Translations under genes and position numbers: made by a program
In this document: in pieces, positions 22,500-42,871 of the stretch
How positions within the stretch are numbered: the stretch's first letter is position 1
Layout of the letters: each line of letters begins with the position of its first letter
Origin: Tychonema sp. LEGE 06208
Lineage (GTDB): Bacteria; Cyanobacteriota; Cyanobacteriia; Cyanobacteriales; Microcoleaceae
Direction of reading: 5' to 3'
DNA: 64,000 nucleotides
NCBI RefSeq assembly: GCF_015207505.1
Contig: NZ_JADEWT010000018.1
Location: 1-64,000, forward strand
The notes under the pieces: generated by a model
Databases searched by the model: none
What the model saw: the letters and a program-made list of their open reading frames with translations, nothing else
Told to the model about the DNA's origin: nothing

Positions 22500-22856
22500 T
22501 TGACCCTGACCGTTAGCCTCAGAGGCACTCGCGAAGTCAAGAATAACTATCAGTTATTTCGCCTGACTGGCCTGCTCGACGCTTTTTCTGAGGCCACTTT
22601 TCGGAAGGTAATAAGCAAATGTATAGACGATGGCCCAAAACACGTAATTTTGGACTTGTCTAAAATAGACTTTGTGGACAGTTCCGGCTTGGGCGCACTT
22701 GTACAACTTGTCAAGAAAGCCCAAACCTTGGAAGGAACATTGCAAATTGTCTCAAATCCCCGTGTAACTCAGACTGTTAAACTGGTTCGCTTAGAGAAAT
22801 TTTTGTCTTTGCAGCCAACGGTTGATGATGCGGTAAAAAACGTCAAGGATACTTGA
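22500..22856 (+). CDS. STAS-domain anti-anti-sigma-type protein
   Basis: A small single-domain STAS protein of the SpoIIAA/RsbV kind, which in partner switching binds an anti-sigma kinase when unphosphorylated. The phosphorylatable serine lies in FVDSSGLGALV, preceded by HVILDLSKID. The N-terminal SLRGTREVKNNYQLFRLTGL is characteristic of a conserved cyanobacterial form. The start is uncertain. In frame there is TTG at 22500, but the strong AGGAGG-like site at 22477-22484 is much better placed for an ATT codon at 22488, and there is no in-frame ATG or GTG upstream before a stop. A good promoter and a downstream terminator make it a single-gene transcript. Partner and target sigma factor are unknown. 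Confidence 0.88.
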   Translation: MTLTVSLRGTREVKNNYQLFRLTGLLDAFSEATFRKVISKCIDDGPKHVILDLSKIDFVDSSGLGALVQLVKKAQTLEGTLQIVSNPRVTQTVKLVRLEKFLSLQPTVDDAVKNVKDT

Positions 22857-33867: not shown

Positions 33868-34747
33868 AAGGTGTAGCGCATTTAAATTGTATATTTCAAT
33901 TCCCAATCAAACGTTGTCAAATCCTTTTTCTTTTTCCCTCTTTCACCTTCTAAGCTGTTGTGCAAATAAACATTGTATATTTCGACGATCGATCAAAAAT
34001 CTTTTCTCCCTATCCCCTTCTCCCCGTCTTTACCCGATCGCGAAGCCGAAGGGAGCCGAAGCAAGCCGAAGCAAGCCCCTCTCTCCCTCAATCACCATAC
34101 ACAATTGGGATGCACAACAGCTCATCTCTTTCTCTCTCGAACATAACAGACTATCTTTGGCTTGGCCCAAGTCTGGTAAGTCTTGGAGATCGCGCGCCGA
34201 GTCGTCTGCTAGAATGACGCGCGGGCTAAAAATAGGGTTTATCGGTTGATTTGGCGCTGTCAAACCCAATATTTCTCACAGAAACCGGGTTGTTGGTGCC
34301 AGTCCTAGTCTAGTGCGCTGACGGTGTAAGATTGGTCGGCGCGATCGCACTTGCGGATATTACCTAGGCTTTTAGGATGAGCTCGCGCACAGCTACACTC
34401 CCTTGCAACTTCCACAGGAGCGTAGCTGTGCGGGCGCTGAATGCGTTGCATTTTTGAGCTGGCGACGGCTGGGACAAATAGCTGGCGGGGGGCATTGCAT
34501 AAATATTGGTACTCGCGGCAGCAAGATTTTGCTCAGGGGGGCGAACTTTCTCCGTACAGGCGATCGGTAAATAAGCCAATTGGCTTAGACTCTTAAGACA
34601 TATTGCTGATGCCTTACGTTCTATAAAAAAGATAGCATTCTGGTGTGAGCGCGAAATAATACCGAGCAAGCAAGTATAAAATACAACAACTTGGCTCACC
34701 CGGTCTGAAAATCGCTAAAAATTAATACTTTTACACAGGGAAAATAA
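33868..34747. other. 880-base gene-free region with repeats and a long hairpin
   Basis: No credible gene on either strand. Bases 34000-34095 are CT-rich with three gccgaag units, the same text seen in the rnhB extension. 34286 carries a GAAACCGGGT copy. A long inverted repeat CGCACAGCTACaCTCC / GGAGcGTAGCTGTGCG spans 34385-34433. HIP1 sites near 34340. The last 60 bases hold the leader of the next gene with an AGGGA Shine-Dalgarno. Confidence 0.5.
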
Positions 34748-35398
34748 ATGTTGAACAACATAGACGAACTGGCCGAAAGTGGCAGAGGCATCAAACTGAT
34801 GTGGCAGATTGCAGACGAGTTAAGCTACACCCGGACTCTCGACGGTCAAAATTGTTTGTCACTCAGCAAAAGTTACGAAGTAGAAGGTCGCAATAAAGAG
34901 CCAAATAAAAAAAATTCTAAAGCTTTAGATGGATTAATGAATTTATTAAATAGATGGGATTGGCAGAATGAAACAGACCAGGAAGCAGAGCTTTACGAAA
35001 CTTCTGTTCAAAACATGAGCCTGCAAGTCAACACAGATGTCAATGCTTTAACTATAGTTATGGATTGGTTTGAGCAATTAAAAGATTTATCGCTACCCAA
35101 TGAAGTTTGGTTCCAGCTTCAGTTAGCTTTAGCTGAAGGTTTTATTAATGCAGTTCGCCACGCTCACAAAAATCTGCCAGTAGAAACTCCCGTTCAACTA
35201 GAAATTACCGTGTTTGACGGACACTTGGAACTCAAAGTTTGGGATTGCGGCCCGAGTTTTGATTTTGATGCTAAGCTCAAGGAAATTATTGCAGCAGATA
35301 GAAAACCAAGCTTGGATTTAGAAGTTTTGAACTATCTTTGCTTGATTCCTAGCAGAGCAAAAAGTTTGGATATGTATCGGCTTTTAATTGCTGGGTAG
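34748..35398 (+). CDS. Anti-sigma-type GHKL ATPase with halves in permuted order
   Basis: 216 residues related to RsbW/SpoIIAB-type Ser/Thr kinases that bind sigma factors or STAS proteins. The order of motifs is unusual. Residues 8-46 (ELAESGRGIKLMWQIADELS, then YTRT, GQNCLSLSKSY) look like the C-terminal half with the G2 lid. A polar linker follows (about 47-88). Then residues 90-192 look like the N-terminal half: LQVNTDVNALTIVMDWFEQL, N-box E130/N134 (LAEGFINAVRHAHK), G1-like DCG at 166-168. The last 24 residues diverge from the family where the G2 half would be expected. The start has AGGGA seven bases upstream and an in-frame TAA immediately before the ATG, so the frame is not a fragment of a longer one. 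It could be a circular permutation or a remnant of two tandem copies. The G1 box is degenerate. Confidence 0.75.
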   Translation: MLNNIDELAESGRGIKLMWQIADELSYTRTLDGQNCLSLSKSYEVEGRNKEPNKKNSKALDGLMNLLNRWDWQNETDQEAELYETSVQNMSLQVNTDVNALTIVMDWFEQLKDLSLPNEVWFQLQLALAEGFINAVRHAHKNLPVETPVQLEITVFDGHLELKVWDCGPSFDFDAKLKEIIAADRKPSLDLEVLNYLCLIPSRAKSLDMYRLLIAG

Positions 35399-36037
35399 TG
35401 GGGTAGAGGGACAATTAAAAGATTGGAACAATTGAAGATGTGTTATGCTAAAAACGGTGTCAGGGGAAGAGTTACGGGTTTTGTCTTCGCGTAGGTGAAG
35501 GGTCTTGAATACTGACGACCTGCTGCAACTTTGGTTTTCAGCTAGGAGCTTGGGTGAGTCTGTAGCAGTTCTAGAGCAACGGGTCGATATGTCAGTATAT
35601 TTTAGATTAAAGAATTGAAGAATGAGAGATTTACTTGCAGCGCCGCGAATCACCAAGTCGGGAACTTGAGTCTAAAATTTGGGAAAATTCACGACCGTCC
35701 TATGCAGCACGGTATCGGTTTTGGGGCTGGTCAAGTTAAAGATGAAAAATTAAAAATTATTGTGAATATTTTTTAATTCGATCGCAATATCTGGCTCATG
35801 ACAAAAAATAATTGATTGAAAGCCTCTCCCTTTTAGGGATAAATTTAAAAAACACTATTGATTGCGACCATTCTCTGCATTCCAGGTAAGTCGCCCTCAT
35901 CTGTCAGATCGTATCCGGTCGATTACCACAATAAAAACGGTTCGTAGTGCGTCATGGTGTCCGCATTACGAACTTTGTTGATTGCGCGACGGTACATGAT
36001 ATAAACTATCAATATTCAACTGAACGAACAATTACTA
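35399..36037. other. Gene-free region
   Basis: No gene seen on either strand that I can support. It carries no STRR array. Composition becomes AT-rich after 35740. A short inverted pair near 35690 (cgaccg...cggtat) is too weak to call. The promoter for the DUF3593 gene should lie in the last 100 bases. Confidence 0.35.
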
Positions 36038-36940: not shown

Positions 36941-38992
36941 ATGAGCTATTGCCTCAATCCCCATTGCCAGAAGCCGCAAAATCCTGACTCAAGTAAGTTT
37001 TGTCTGGCGTGCGGCTCAAAATTGCTGCTGAAAGAGCGTTACCGCGCCCTTCAACCTATCGGTGAAGGAACATTTGGCAGAACTTTTTTAGCTGTCGATG
37101 AAGATAGGTTAAAAACTCGCTGCGCCATCAAACAATTTTTTCCGCAGGTTCAAGAAAAGGCAGAGTTAGAAAAGGCAACTGCACTGTTTAAACAAGAAGC
37201 TCAGCGGCTGTACGAACTCGGAGAACACCCACAAATTCCAAGTTTGTTGGCTTCTCTTGAACAAGGAACACATCTGTATCTTGTGGAAGAGTTAATTGAG
37301 GGAAATAATTTATTTCAGGAGTTGCAGCAGCGGGGAGCTTTTAGTGAGGAACAGATTTGGGAATTGTTGATTAATTTGTTGCCTGTTTTGCAGTTTGTTC
37401 ACGAGCAGCAGGTGATTCATCGGGATATTAAGCCGGAAAATATTCTGCGGAGAAATCCCCAAAATCTCAGGGCTGCCCGATATTGCAACTCGACTGCAGC
37501 GAAAGGAAAAAAAGGGATAATTATGCCTGAATCTGCTGCTGTACAGGGTGCGGCGAGGGGTGGTCAGTTTGTGCTGGTAGATTTTGGGGTGGCTAAGCAG
37601 ATTAGCGTCATTTCTGAGGCGAAAACTGGTACGATAACTGGAACTGCTGGCTATGCGCCGATCGAACAAATTCGCAGCGGCAAGGCTTATCCGGCGAGCG
37701 ACCTTTACAGTTTGGGCGTTACGTGCATTCACCTGCTGACTGGGGCGGTGCTGAATGATTTGTTTGATGCTTTGGAATGCAAATGGATTTGGCGATCGCA
37801 CTTAGCGCAAAAAGGCATCAAAGTCAGCAAAAAATTAACAAGTATTTTAAACAAATTGCTCAAAGATTCAGTAAGAGAGCGATATCAATCCGCTGCTGAA
37901 GTGCTGCAAGACCTAGTACATTTTGGGCAATATCCCCGCTCTCAAATCGCTTATAATTATCGACCCAAAATAGCTATCAATTCGGCAGTAACTAACTTGC
38001 AGCAAAATAGATCGACCGCTGTCTCTGTCGCGCCGATCCACAAGATTCACGTTGCAACTGCTTCCCCTAGCAACCAGAAATTATTGTCTCGTAACTGGCG
38101 CTGCGCCTGCATTCTTCGCGGTCATTCAGGCTCGGTTAATGCTGTTGTAATTAATCCTCAAGGCAATATTATTGCTAGCGCCAGCGACGATAAAACAATT
38201 AAGCTGTGGAACCTGCACACAGGTGAATTAATTCATACTTTTTTCGGCCATTCTGCAACGGTTGATGCTGTGGCTATCAGCCCGGACGGAAGAATGCTGG
38301 TTAGTGGCAGTTTTGACAGAAAAGTTATTGAGTGGAAGCTGGATAAAAAGGCGATGATTCGCGAGTTTTACAGCGATTACGGTTCGCCCTACAGTCACCG
38401 GTACGGCTCGGTGTATTCGGTGGCTTTTAGCTGTGATGGAGGCGCAATTGCGAGTGCTAGCGGCGACAAGAGTATTAAACTGTGGAACCAGCACAACGGA
38501 GCCTTGGTGCAAAAACTTTCGGGACATTCTGACAAGGTTTTATCTGTGAGTTTCCGCCCTCAAAGTATGATTCTGGCGAGCGGTAGTGCGGACAAAACTA
38601 TTAAGATTTGGCGTGTAGGTATTGCGGAGAGTGTACGGACTTTTGTGGGTCATTCGGATTGGGTTTATGCGATCGCCTTTAGTCAAGATGGCAAGACGAT
38701 TGTCAGCGGTAGTGCGGACGCTACGCTAAAATTGTGGAATGTCGATACAGGGGAATTAATTAATACTTTGAACGGGCATTCTGACGCAATTATTTCGGTG
38801 GCGATTAGTCCCGATCGCTCTATTGTGGCTAGCGGCAGCCGAGATGGTACGGTTAAACTGTGGAACTTGCAAACAGGGGTATGTTTGTGCAGTCTGGTTG
38901 GGTGTAATCCGGTGGCTTTTAGTCCTGACGGTCAAACTTTAGTCACCGGTGGGGATGGCTACGAGGTGTTAGTTTGGCGGGCGTTTGTTTAG
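36941..38992 (+). CDS. Zinc-ribbon Ser/Thr protein kinase with WD40 propeller
   Basis: A eukaryotic-type protein kinase of 683 residues. The N-terminal zinc ribbon has C4/C9 and C21/C24. The kinase domain (about 33-330) has Lys64 (AIKQFF), catalytic loop [11 protein letters not shown] and LVDFGVAK, with a Ser/Thr-rich activation segment ([15 protein letters not shown]). After a linker, seven WD40 blades occupy about 385-683, most ending in the IKLWN type; the last is short. I chose the ATG at 36941 because family members begin MSYCLNP and it has a purine-rich site upstream; 36854 would add 29 residues. Cytoplasmic, no membrane segment. The WD40 part is likely the partner-binding platform. The 3' end overlaps dnaE by 24 bases in opposite orientation, leaving no room for a terminator. 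Confidence 0.93.
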
Positions 38993-41900
38993 TTGGGCGA
39001 GATAGTTGAGATACTGAGAAATGCGATCGGCATCCGCGTCAAGTAAACGACTGGCCCAAGAATGTATGTTAACTTGCGATCGCACTTCTCGAAACACCGC
39101 AGCATCCCCGCGATTGTCGAGAGGAAAAACCCAAGCATCAAATCCCGCAGACTTGAGGCGGCTAACAGCACCACCGCCATCTTGTACCCATAACTTAGGG
39201 TTAATCCGAAGCGGCTGACAGCAATATTTACCCACAACAATTCCGCCCACAGAAGCCCTAGCATCCTCTCGGCGATAGGAAAGTTCTTCCAAAAGAGCTT
39301 TGAGATAATTGAGTTTTTCTGCATCTTGTACTTGCTGCGGTGTAAACTTGACAATCACCATTTCTATAACTTCCACAGGTTTTGTCGATCGGGCAAAGTT
39401 AACCGGTTCCGTCGCCAAATAATTTTGTCTTTCCGGTTGCGCCGCCCAAGAACTTTGTGTTTCCGATTCCCTCGCCCAAGAATTTTGTATTTCCGGTTGG
39501 GCTACCTCGATCTCCTCTGCAACTTGTGAATTTTCTACAGGCTTTGCAGTGTCTACAATTATCTGAATTTCTTCGCCATCTTTCTCTATTTTTCCACCAA
39601 TTAGCAAAATCGCATTATCTACAATGTAAGGTTTCACTTGTTCGTAAGCCTTGGGAAATACAACAGCTTTGATTTGATTAGTCAAATCTTCTAATTGCAA
39701 AATTGCCATCGCATCGCCCTTTTTTGTCACTACAAGTTTGATAGCGTTGATCGTTACAATAACCGAAACTTTCCCTTTTTTCTCCGCCAACTCTGCCAGA
39801 GTCACAACATCTGGATCTTGATTAGATTCAAGCAGAAACTTGAGGGGATGTTCTGATACATAAAAACCCAGCAATTCTTTTTCTAAACGCAATTTTTCCT
39901 GTGTATCAAAATCTTTGACAGTCTTTGATTTTGGTGCAGACTCAAATTTATTCGCCGAGTTCCCAAAGCTATTCCCACCTAACAAGTCAAACAGATTACC
40001 TTGACCACTTTCCCGGTCTTTCTTGCGGTCTTGAGCCCATTTCATCACCCCTTCGAGGTCGTTTACCAATTGCTGGCGGTTGGGATCGATTTTGTCAAAA
40101 GCACCACACTGAATTAAGGCTTCTAGGGCGCGGCGGTTGACAGAATGTAGATTTACGCGATCGCACAAATCCGGCAGCGACTTAAACTTACCCCCTTCTT
40201 GGCGCGCCTCCAAAATATTTTCAATAGCCCCCTCACCCACATTTTTAACCGCCGAAATTCCAAACAAAATTTTATGTCTTTCGGCCTTTGTCATCTCTAT
40301 AGGAAGCGGCGTAAAAATAAGTTCAGAGCTATTAATATCAGGTGGCTCAACGTCAATCTTCAGCTTGAGACAATTAGCAATATATCTCTGTACCTTCTCC
40401 TGATCGCCGCTATTAGCAGTCAGCAGTGCAGCCATGTATTCTACAGGAAAATTTGCCTTTAAATAAGCAGTTTGGTAAGTGATATAGGCATAGGCCATTG
40501 AATGGGATTTATTAAAGCAATATTCTGCGAATTGTAGCATTTGTCCGAACAACTCTTCGGCAACTCTTTGAGTGACACCATTCTTAGTTGCCCCATCAAT
40601 AAATGTTTCCTTTTGCTTCTGCATTTCATCAGCCTTCTTCTTGCCCATTGCGCGGCGCAGCAAGTCAGCTTGACCTAAAGAATAGCCCGCCAAATCTTGA
40701 GCCATCCGCATAATTTGCTCTTGGAAACAAAGCGTTCCATAGGTTTCTTTTAAAATTGGTTCTAACAACGGATGGTCATATTTAACCACCTCTCTACCGT
40801 GTTTGCGATCGATAAATTGTGGAATCAAACCAGCATCCAGCGGGCCGGGACGATAAAGCGCCAGAATAGAAGAAATATCATCCAGACAGGAAGGTTTAAT
40901 TTTTTTTACTACATCCAGCATCCCAGAAGATTCTAGCTGAAAAATACCTTCCAAATCTCCTTTTTCTAATAGTTGATAAGTTTTTGCTACATCACCGGGT
41001 AACTTGTTATTCCTAGTAAATGTCTCTTGAGCTCTGCGTTCTATATCAGAAGGTAAGGCTTCGGCATCGATAGTTATATCTTGCGTTTGCTTAACATACT
41101 CGACTGTTTTTTGGAGAGTTGTTAAATTTTTAAGTCCCAGAAAATCCATCTTCAGCAACCCCAAAAATTCCAAGTCTTCCATGAAATATTGGGTAATCAC
41201 AGCACCATTGTCATTCTTTTGCAACGGTACAATTTCATCAAGGGGTTGGGAAGAAATGACCACACCGGCCGCGTGAACGCCATAGGTTTTGTTAGTTCCT
41301 TCAATGCGAATTGCCATGTCAATCCACTGACGCACTGGAACTTCGGTGCCAGTTTCTGCATTTATGCAAATTGTATTTTCGTAGTTGTCTTTAAAATCCT
41401 GTGCCGGTGTTCCCTCGGAAATCATCACTTTGAGTTTTTCCGGTTTCCCCCGCGACACGGGAATCATTTTTGCCATTTCGTCGGCTTTTTTGTAGGGAAT
41501 TCCTAGCACTCTAGCAACATCTTTCAAGACAGCTTTTGATGTCATTCTGTTGAAAGTAATAATTTGTGCTACGCGGTCTGTACCATATTTTTCCGTAACA
41601 TATTTAATCATATCGTCGCGTCTTTCTATGCAAAAATCGCTATCGATATCTGGCATAGATTTACGTTCGGGATTGAGAAATCTCTCGAACAACAATCCGT
41701 GGTGTACGGGGTCTATGTTGGTAATGTTGAGGACGTAAGCAACTAAAGAACCGGCCGCAGAACCACGTCCTGGCCCGACGGGAATATTGTTGTCTCTAGC
41801 ATATTTCATGTAGTCCCAAACTACTAAAAAATATTCAGAAAAACCCATCTGCTGAATCATTTTTAGCTCATATTCTAGTCTTTGTTTGTAGACTGGGGGG

Positions 41901-42871
41901 ATTTCGTTTCGGGTGCGGCTTTTGAGGCGTTCTAATAGTCCCAGCCAAGATATTTCTTCTACATAGGTATCGGCGGTATGTTCTGGGGGAATTGGAATTG
42001 TGGGAATCCGAGCTTCTCCTGTTAGCTCGTATCTTGATACTTTGTTTGCTACTTCTAGGGTAGTTTCGATCGCCTCTTTGATGGTTTCGTCGTCCAAATG
42101 GTCTCGAAATAGTTGCGCCATTTCGTCAGCGGACTTAAGATATTCAGTACCGCTGTAGCGCATCCGCTTGTCTTCTTCAATCAGTTTGTTGGTGTTGATG
42201 CACAGCAAAGCATCGTGGGCTTCTACGTCGTTGCAAGAAATATAGTGAGAATCGTTAGTGGCGATTATTTTTATATTGAATTCGCGGGCAATTTTGACGA
42301 TTTCCACATTCACCATCCGGTCTTCTTGGGAACCGTGGTCTTGAATTTCTATATAGTAGTCATCCCCAAATACTTCTTTATACCATTTGGCAACTTCGCG
42401 CGCTGTATCTAGCTTGTTTTGGAGAATCATTTGGGGAACTTCGCCACCCAAACAAGCACTGGTGACAATTAAACCTTCGGAGTATTGTTTGAGCAGGTCT
42501 TTGTTGATGCAGGGGCGGGCAAAAATACCTCGTTCTGGCATTCCCTGTAAGTGAGAAATTGTGGTGAGTTTGACGAGGTTTTTATAGCCTTGGGTATTTT
42601 TGGCTAAGACAACTTGATGGTATTTTCTTCTACCTCTAACTTTGACTTCGATGTCGCCGTTGACGACGTACATTTCGTTGCCAATTATGGGCTTGATGTT
42701 TTTATTTCGGCAAACTTTGATGAGTTCGATCGCGCCGTACATCACTCCGTGGTCCGTAAGGGCGATCGCGGGCATCCCCAATTCCACCGCCCGTTCGGCG
42801 AGCTGCTGTAGCTGAGAAGCGCCATCTAGGAGGCTGTAATCGCTGTGAATGTGCAAACCAACGAAGGACAT
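38969..42871 (-). CDS. dnaE: DNA polymerase III alpha subunit, uninterrupted
   Basis: Replicative polymerase catalytic subunit, 1300 residues. Domains in order: PHP (about 1-280; [19 protein letters not shown]); polymerase palm with D408/D410 in MPDIDSDF; fingers and tau-binding parts; helix-hairpin-helix ([15 protein letters not shown]); OB-fold ([12 protein letters not shown], about 1020-1090); and a C-terminal domain. At Y784-C785 ([11 protein letters not shown]), where many cyanobacteria carry the split DnaE intein, the sequence is continuous. Residues about 1120-1160 hold three imperfect repeats around (A/S)QPExQN. The ATG at 42871 ([13 protein letters not shown]) fits the family start. 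The dnaE stop lies inside the end of the WD40 kinase gene on the other strand. Confidence 0.97.

Follow-up and report, generated by a model that had tools for sequence, protein, structure and literature searches.

The window, that is, the whole 64,000-nucleotide stretch of DNA from Tychonema sp. LEGE 06208 that was analysed, carries a gene whose product (P0001) contains one complete RsbW/SpoIIAB-type ATPase domain with its G2 half placed ahead of its N-box/G1 half. The gene and its parts are as follows.

34748–35398, + strand: gene of the predicted permuted RsbW/SpoIIAB-type ATPase (P0001), 216 aa plus stop, ATG start
34737–34741, + strand: putative Shine-Dalgarno sequence AGGGA, 6 nt 5' of the ATG, from sequence reading
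34769–34885, + strand: G2 half, residues 8–46, a helix with the GRG motif and a beta hairpin, Pfam HATPase_c_2 profile positions 92–127
34886–35008, + strand: linker, residues 47–87, joining the ancestral C- to N-terminus, predicted helix at 58–69
35009–35287, + strand: N half, residues 88–180, N box LAEGFINAVRHAHK, G1 box DCGPSFDFD, HATPase_c_2 profile positions 5–83
35288–35395, + strand: C-terminal tail, residues 181–216, dN/dS 0.96, pLDDT below 50 from residue 187

Reading of the sequence also places an in-frame TAA (34745–34747) directly against the ATG; an earlier note on this DNA had observed this stop and a Shine-Dalgarno sequence of the gene's own. In terms of Pfam HATPase_c_2, the G2 half corresponds to the C-terminal half of a normal-order domain and the N half to its N-terminal half. 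The linker measures 34–44 residues (median 41) in 58 unique frames of the G2-N order. At the position of the P0001 tail, normal proteins run on through the ATP lid into G2. The tail is variable in clade A, the group formed by 27 sequences of the genus and L028, apart from a shared -AG end: at the position of window 35390–35395, 27 of the 28 clade-A frames terminate in AG, mostly LIAG, despite a dN/dS of about 1 in the tail that precedes it. This conserved end is possibly a terminal signal or a degron.

The swapped order was detected by several profile comparisons. Pfam HATPase_c_2 matched whole P0001 with an E-value of 2.2e-18 in two stretches of reverse order. When the two ends were searched separately, the first 50 residues matched profile positions 92–127 (E 2.5e-4; 21.5 bits, short of the cut-off at 27.4 bits) and the last 135 residues matched positions 5–83 (E 3.6e-13). 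A profile of 37 permuted sequences aligned with Bacillus subtilis RsbW (6m36) at E 3.3e-12, again in two pieces with the order reversed: profile positions 123–179 fell on RsbW 38–93 (36.7 bits), and positions 3–26 on RsbW 101–124 (10.9 bits, weak on its own). The N box, G1 and G2 motifs were all found in P0001, and the N-box half does not precede the G2 half. The order proposed in the earlier note is borne out by the separate Pfam half searches and the two-piece RsbW alignment, and the profile match of the first 50 residues identifies them as the G2 half which that note had recognized. The full motif set and the single domain's worth of sequence agree with its view that the halves rebuild roughly one domain and, together with conservation in many species, support the circular permutation of a GHKL ATPase which it had considered. 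As in natural permutants, the halves are homologous to those of a normal member, they are swapped, and the chain is broken in a loop, namely the ATP lid between G1 and G2. Searches of all six frames with half-profiles gave no N-half match upstream (33907–34747) and no second G2 half downstream (35399–36037), the best G2-half match in these flanks having E 42 at Z=1000. The half-profiles, which also served for the ordering of loci, the Hormoscilla genes and the men loci, derive from the permuted alignment A2, and Pfam provides the independent check.

By sequence and fold, the best solved relatives of P0001 are RsbW and SpoIIAB (PF13581), with which it has the N box, G1, G2 and the predicted alpha/beta elements in common. 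It differs from them in the swapped halves, chain termini located in the ATP lid, a linker of some 41 residues, and the lack of a conserved sigma or STAS neighbour in clade A. It also lies far under the cut-offs of the NCBIfam RsbW equivalog models (35.5 bits against 145 for PRK04069 and 31.7 against 155.05 for TIGR01924), as do the normal-order paralogues. The genome that encodes P0001 also has normal-order paralogues, on contigs C224, C177 and C121, and two of the 11 HATPase_c_2 matches over the cut-off in this genome are permuted proteins.

The distribution of the permuted family was investigated at the level of genus, order and class with lineage-specific profiles. Among the matches listed for 59 genomes of relatives, a full-length permuted relative was found in 27 of the 29 that belong to the same genus, the exceptions being G003 (74% complete) and G005 (92% complete), and a full-length match to P0001 was also found in G054, which belongs to another family. 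A second, shorter group of permuted paralogues, clade B, is represented in the own genome at G000:C88:62323–62871. Among the matches listed for 388 genomes of the order, full-span matches of at least 209.7 bits occurred in 36 genomes from six genera, one of these genomes being the G2-N-G2 case, and the next ones were partial, with at most 164.6 bits. The match lists of both surveys are truncated at their weak end. A full-span match in G132 with seven internal stops reads in normal order as locus L195 and was excluded from this count. The best 80 contig loci comprised 36 G2-N, one G2-N-G2 and 43 N-G2 arrangements, in counts to which a single genome may contribute two loci (L064 and L085; L100 and L193). 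In a class-wide draw of 388 genomes, the permuted form was found at E 1e-40 in four genomes, from genera g1 and g32 only. Two unusual members were observed besides: a tandem of two clade-B permuted genes at L056 5893–7411 (G020), the first lacking one residue in the N box (AIHHHK) and the second with N134 replaced by H, and a normal-order member at L074 4719–5465 (G042) whose G2 hairpin contains about 16 inserted residues.

A possible path to the swapped order is preserved in Oscillatoria sp. SIO1A7, where G2-N-G2 is found in one frame of 255 codons; judged by its sequence, this gene appears to be the intermediate expected for permutation via a redundant copy. Three forms of the gene occur next to menE, G2-N in three genomes of genus g27, G2-N-G2 in SIO1A7 and N-G2 in G167. 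In each case the gene stands 3'-to-3' with menE and beside menC, menH and menA, and the other flank holds a small ORF and/or a 4HBT-type thioesterase. The men-locus genes were named from NCBIfam and Pfam, with menE under the cut-off in G167 and SIO1A7 and over it in g27. A menE match was obtained in 63 of 68 genomes, five of which have the ATPase gene; 40 of the 58 others were hand-picked, and in none of these 40 was such a gene found beside menE within the 2.2–3.9 kb read beyond it, while the thioesterase was present in that stretch in 26 of them. As the gene is missing from all 40 of these men loci, g27, SIO1A7 and G167 share a derived site.

Phylogenetic analysis of the N halves with IQ-TREE (60 of 124 rows, hand-chosen) separated 29 permuted or intermediate rows plus three normal-order rows, namely G167 and two from Hormoscilla, from 28 other normal-order rows (99/97); in a FastTree analysis of all 124 rows, these three sit with the other normal ones, weakly (0.753). 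The permuted rows need three changes on the N-half tree, and their grouping in a single clade was not rejected (AU p 0.342). In Hormoscilla GM7CHS1pb, where the gene is located away from the men locus, a complete normal gene is preceded in frame by a start resembling G2 and by a linker helix, and in a second genome of this genus that frame is broken near an A run. The G2-like stretch (E 0.0013 at Z=1000) is weak alone, yet it is placed where a G2-N-G2 ancestor requires it. At L197 7935–8024 and L198 3929–4462, an AGGAGG is followed by MML(Q/H)IAE(Q/R)LSYRR, a G2-like remnant before the normal gene.

In two g27 proteins, the tail can be aligned with the lid and G2 encoded by the G167 gene (score 37, reached in 1 and 0 of 2000 shuffles; 4.5% and 3.5% in a control taking the best of all targets) and has the look of a second G2 that has decayed. 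For the remaining g27 protein, L028, whose tail is cut, the figure is 185 of 2000 shuffles. Shuffle tests on the tail of P0001 gave no decayed second G2, and a search ahead of the normal-order gene of G167 gave no G2 remnant. Taken together, the sequences fit a G2-N-G2 ancestor from which one or the other G2 was lost. Of the fusion left by duplication and deletion which the earlier note had favoured, the history fits, in view of SIO1A7 and the two g27 tails, and the wrecked state does not, in view of the purifying selection and the 27 of 29 genomes with an intact gene; the degenerate C-terminus on which that preference was based shows no decayed G2 in P0001.

The source of the leading G2 was assessed against two sets of normal-order paralogues, X (38 rows) and Y (23 rows), which leave aside L034 and the three rows placed with the permuted ones, four of the 65 normal-order rows in all; in a leave-one-out control on G2, 38/38 X and 22/23 Y rows were sorted correctly. 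The leading G2 fitted X-type over Y-type in 59/59 rows, with a median difference of +25.1 bits. The trailing G2 of SIO1A7 is Y-like, with Y-type nearest matches, and as a match for the first G2 of that protein it ranks 32nd among the normal-order and second G2 halves. These results suggest that the leading G2 came from a different paralogue, i.e., that two paralogues were fused. A 42-column G2 tree (the leading-G2 tree comprises 61 of 125 rows, hand-chosen) agrees with such a fusion, and the AU test rejected neither self-duplication (p 0.208) nor a Y-type source (p 0.137). A clear two-parent hybrid, with G2 from X and the N half from Y, does not hold throughout: the N half belongs to neither set, being better fitted by Y in 28/59 rows with a median difference of 0.2 bits, in a comparison whose control sorts 38/38 X and 23/23 Y rows, and it groups apart in IQ-TREE. 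The leading G2 of permuted proteins finds one of its closest normal-order counterparts in an X-type normal domain, which lies inside an 803-codon frame at L212 292–2700 (G288).

The proposed origin would read as follows: an X-like G2 half was fused before a normal gene to give G2-N-G2, after which the permuted lineages shed the trailing G2, and in others, such as Hormoscilla, it was the leading G2 that decayed. Alternatively, the gene itself may have been duplicated, rather than fused with the end of another paralogue. Duplication is the textbook route in the available part of PMC3320104, the two G2 halves of SIO1A7 are identical at 20 of 34 positions and their pairing has an AU p of 0.208, and the trailing G2 of Hormoscilla is also X-like. 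The uniform X-type character of the leading G2 and the low rank of the second SIO1A7 G2, itself nearest to Y-type, argue against it, so that self-duplication is regarded as the less likely origin, albeit one with a real chance.

The fold of P0001 was predicted by AF2 with 37 sequences (mean pLDDT 68.9, pTM 0.64). The G2 half was modelled as a helix (13–21) and two strands (24–29 and 35–42), with mean pLDDT of 79, 91 and 91 for the blocks within 11–40, and the N half as a strand (88–95), two helices (98–114 and 118–139), two strands (148–156 and 159–166) and a helix (173–185). The half-domain blocks have mean pLDDT of 79–94, and the linker (48–83) and the tail from residue 187 lie below 50. With VIA-align, residues 86–181 of the model matched residues 1–97 of SpoIIAB (1tid_A) over 95 residues with Z 9.6 and rmsd 2.2; a match confined to 86–181 is what sequential aligners would be expected to give on a permutant. 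Structural matches extending over both halves came from fold-IV aminotransferase/lyase entries with Z 5.0–7.4, within the chance range. Foldseek gave no match at E ≤0.001, and SpoIIAB/RsbW chains top its list. The predicted elements and the half-domain pLDDT fit the parent fold, the pTM of only 0.64 speaks against it, and the halves of P0001 are expected to close into one Bergerat fold.

Based on these analyses, P0001 is probably a natural circular permutant of a HATPase_c_2/GHKL ATPase that acts as a working, ATP-binding partner-switching kinase, the closure of the fold and the activity being predicted. The chain would begin inside the ATP lid, pass the G2 helix and hairpin, cross the linker of about 41 residues from the old C- to the old N-terminus, and go on via the N box to the G1 box, to end in the lid again. 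Closure of the two halves would yield a single ATP-binding Bergerat fold, whose lid consists of two free ends and not of one loop. P0001 may phosphorylate or capture STAS-domain or sigma-type partners, the partner presumably being one of the STAS proteins of the genome. The halves may also pair between chains, in a domain-swapped dimer whose subunits exchange their G2 halves, each N half being completed by that of the other chain, and share the active site. RsbW/SpoIIAB proteins are dimers, and the long linker of low pLDDT would permit either arrangement; the high pLDDT of both halves in a single-chain model, obtained in the absence of a partner, speaks weakly against it, as just one chain was modelled. 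The swapped dimer is considered improbable beside the single-chain permutant.

The conservation of the protein bears on whether the permutant still functions. The N box contains E130 and N134, G1 contains D166 and G168, and the G2 glycines are residues 12 and 14; we take E130 and N134 to be the counterparts of the catalytic base and the Mg-binding residue of SpoIIAB. In the 58 unique G2-N frames, these residues are kept in 57 (E130), 57 (N134), 58 (D166), 58 (G168), 57 (G12) and 58 (G14) cases, and in the clade-A relative L006 E130 is replaced by A. Median dN/dS in clade A (28 sequences) is 0.23 for the G2 half, 0.34 for the N half, 0.47 for the linker and 0.96 for the tail, with 0.43 for the whole protein; in clade B (23 frames) it is 0.35, 0.32 and 0.85 for the G2 half, the N half and the linker, respectively. 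These medians exclude saturated pairs and pairs with dS below 0.05 or above 2. Both halves of P0001 are under purifying selection. A recent pseudogene is ruled out by the dN/dS values together with the near-invariant ATP-site residues.

A degenerate remnant which has lost its ATPase function and is retained for binding or regulation would account for the relaxed tail, the whole-protein value of 0.43 and the conserved neighbours of clade A, which include no partner genes. The near-invariance of the ATP-site residues, a selection that is strongest in the two half-domains and a frame intact in 27 of the 29 genus genomes make this reading unlikely, slightly more so than the swapped dimer. Nothing was observed in favour of an artefact of assembly or frameshift, or of a fragment from the centre of a disrupted tandem of two normal genes, and either has practically no chance, since the order is kept in relatives and recurs in independent assemblies, including the one-contig genomes G018 and G020 and the six-contig G011, and the flanks lack the missing halves; the artefact which the earlier note had wished to see excluded by orthologues is thereby refuted.

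Redundant intermediates are an established path to circular permutation, e.g., in DNA methyltransferases (PMC3320104), which likewise combine a permuted order with a surviving intermediate in which one half is doubled. The methyltransferases have another fold; here, moreover, the leading half is apparently derived from a paralogue, which is not settled, and three forms occur at one site. A permuted kinase of the GHKL, Bergerat, RsbW or anti-sigma type did not come up in the literature searched, mostly outside subscription journals, and appears to be unreported there; PMC3710099, PMC7824862 and PMC3517971, in their available excerpts, concern other proteins. Permutation is seldom caught together with its intermediate, and the presence of normal, redundant and permuted forms at one chromosomal site makes the model testable step by step. 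In the accessible text of a modelling paper on SypA-SypE (PMC10120452), the ATP lid is a flexible loop that likely contacts the STAS partner. Because the cut falls in this lid, the moving part of GHKL enzymes, P0001 would be a natural lid-opening experiment; if so, the split lid would alter nucleotide release or partner gating relative to RsbW. The complete account, in which a still-functional permuted GHKL kinase, cut through its ATP lid, arose by fusion with the tail of a paralogue and has its path kept at one locus, has in our judgement about an even chance of being correct.

The candidate partners were considered from the genomic neighbourhood. In clade A, several of the window neighbours (GatA, an alpha/beta hydrolase, a pentapeptide-repeat gene, DUF3593 and DnaE) are kept in 18 of 19 loci, L069 having none of them, and this synteny is absent from seven loci of other genera. 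When the window neighbours were compared, no sigma, STAS, SpoIIE-type or phosphatase gene was found among those conserved in clade A. In 16 of 22 loci, the clade-B gene is directly followed by one for an OmpR-type response regulator, which is full-length and in one piece in six of them, and in 12 of the 22 an ECF sigma/anti-sigma pair lies within a few kb, some loci being truncated at a contig end. At L038 5181–5912 and other clade-B loci, this downstream regulator is in pieces or partial (10 of the 16) next to an intact permuted gene. The own genome contains eight STAS and five SpoIIE-type matches, some of them near normal-order paralogues (C224, C177, C121 and C209), from which partner switching is expected for the family. 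Slr1861 and PmgA are cyanobacterial RsbW-like kinases with kinase activity verified in vitro (PMC11863333, available text); the normal-order paralogues of this genome would be likelier counterparts of these two than P0001. The ATP binding, kinase activity and partners of P0001 are predictions.

Several other genes were observed. A cluster at C209:18094–21771 of the own genome holds three HATPase_c_2, two STAS and one SpoIIE-type match. In the window, a single-domain STAS gene of SpoIIAA/RsbV-like type with a VDSSGLG motif, a candidate partner, lies at 22500–22856 on the + strand, 12 kb upstream of P0001 and after the gene of the carbamoyl-phosphate synthase small subunit. The neighbouring DnaE gene (window 38969–42871, – strand) is in one piece here; in L060, L063, L064, L091 and L092 its match breaks after about 787 residues and resumes beyond a gap of about 1.2 kb, as with an insert or intein.
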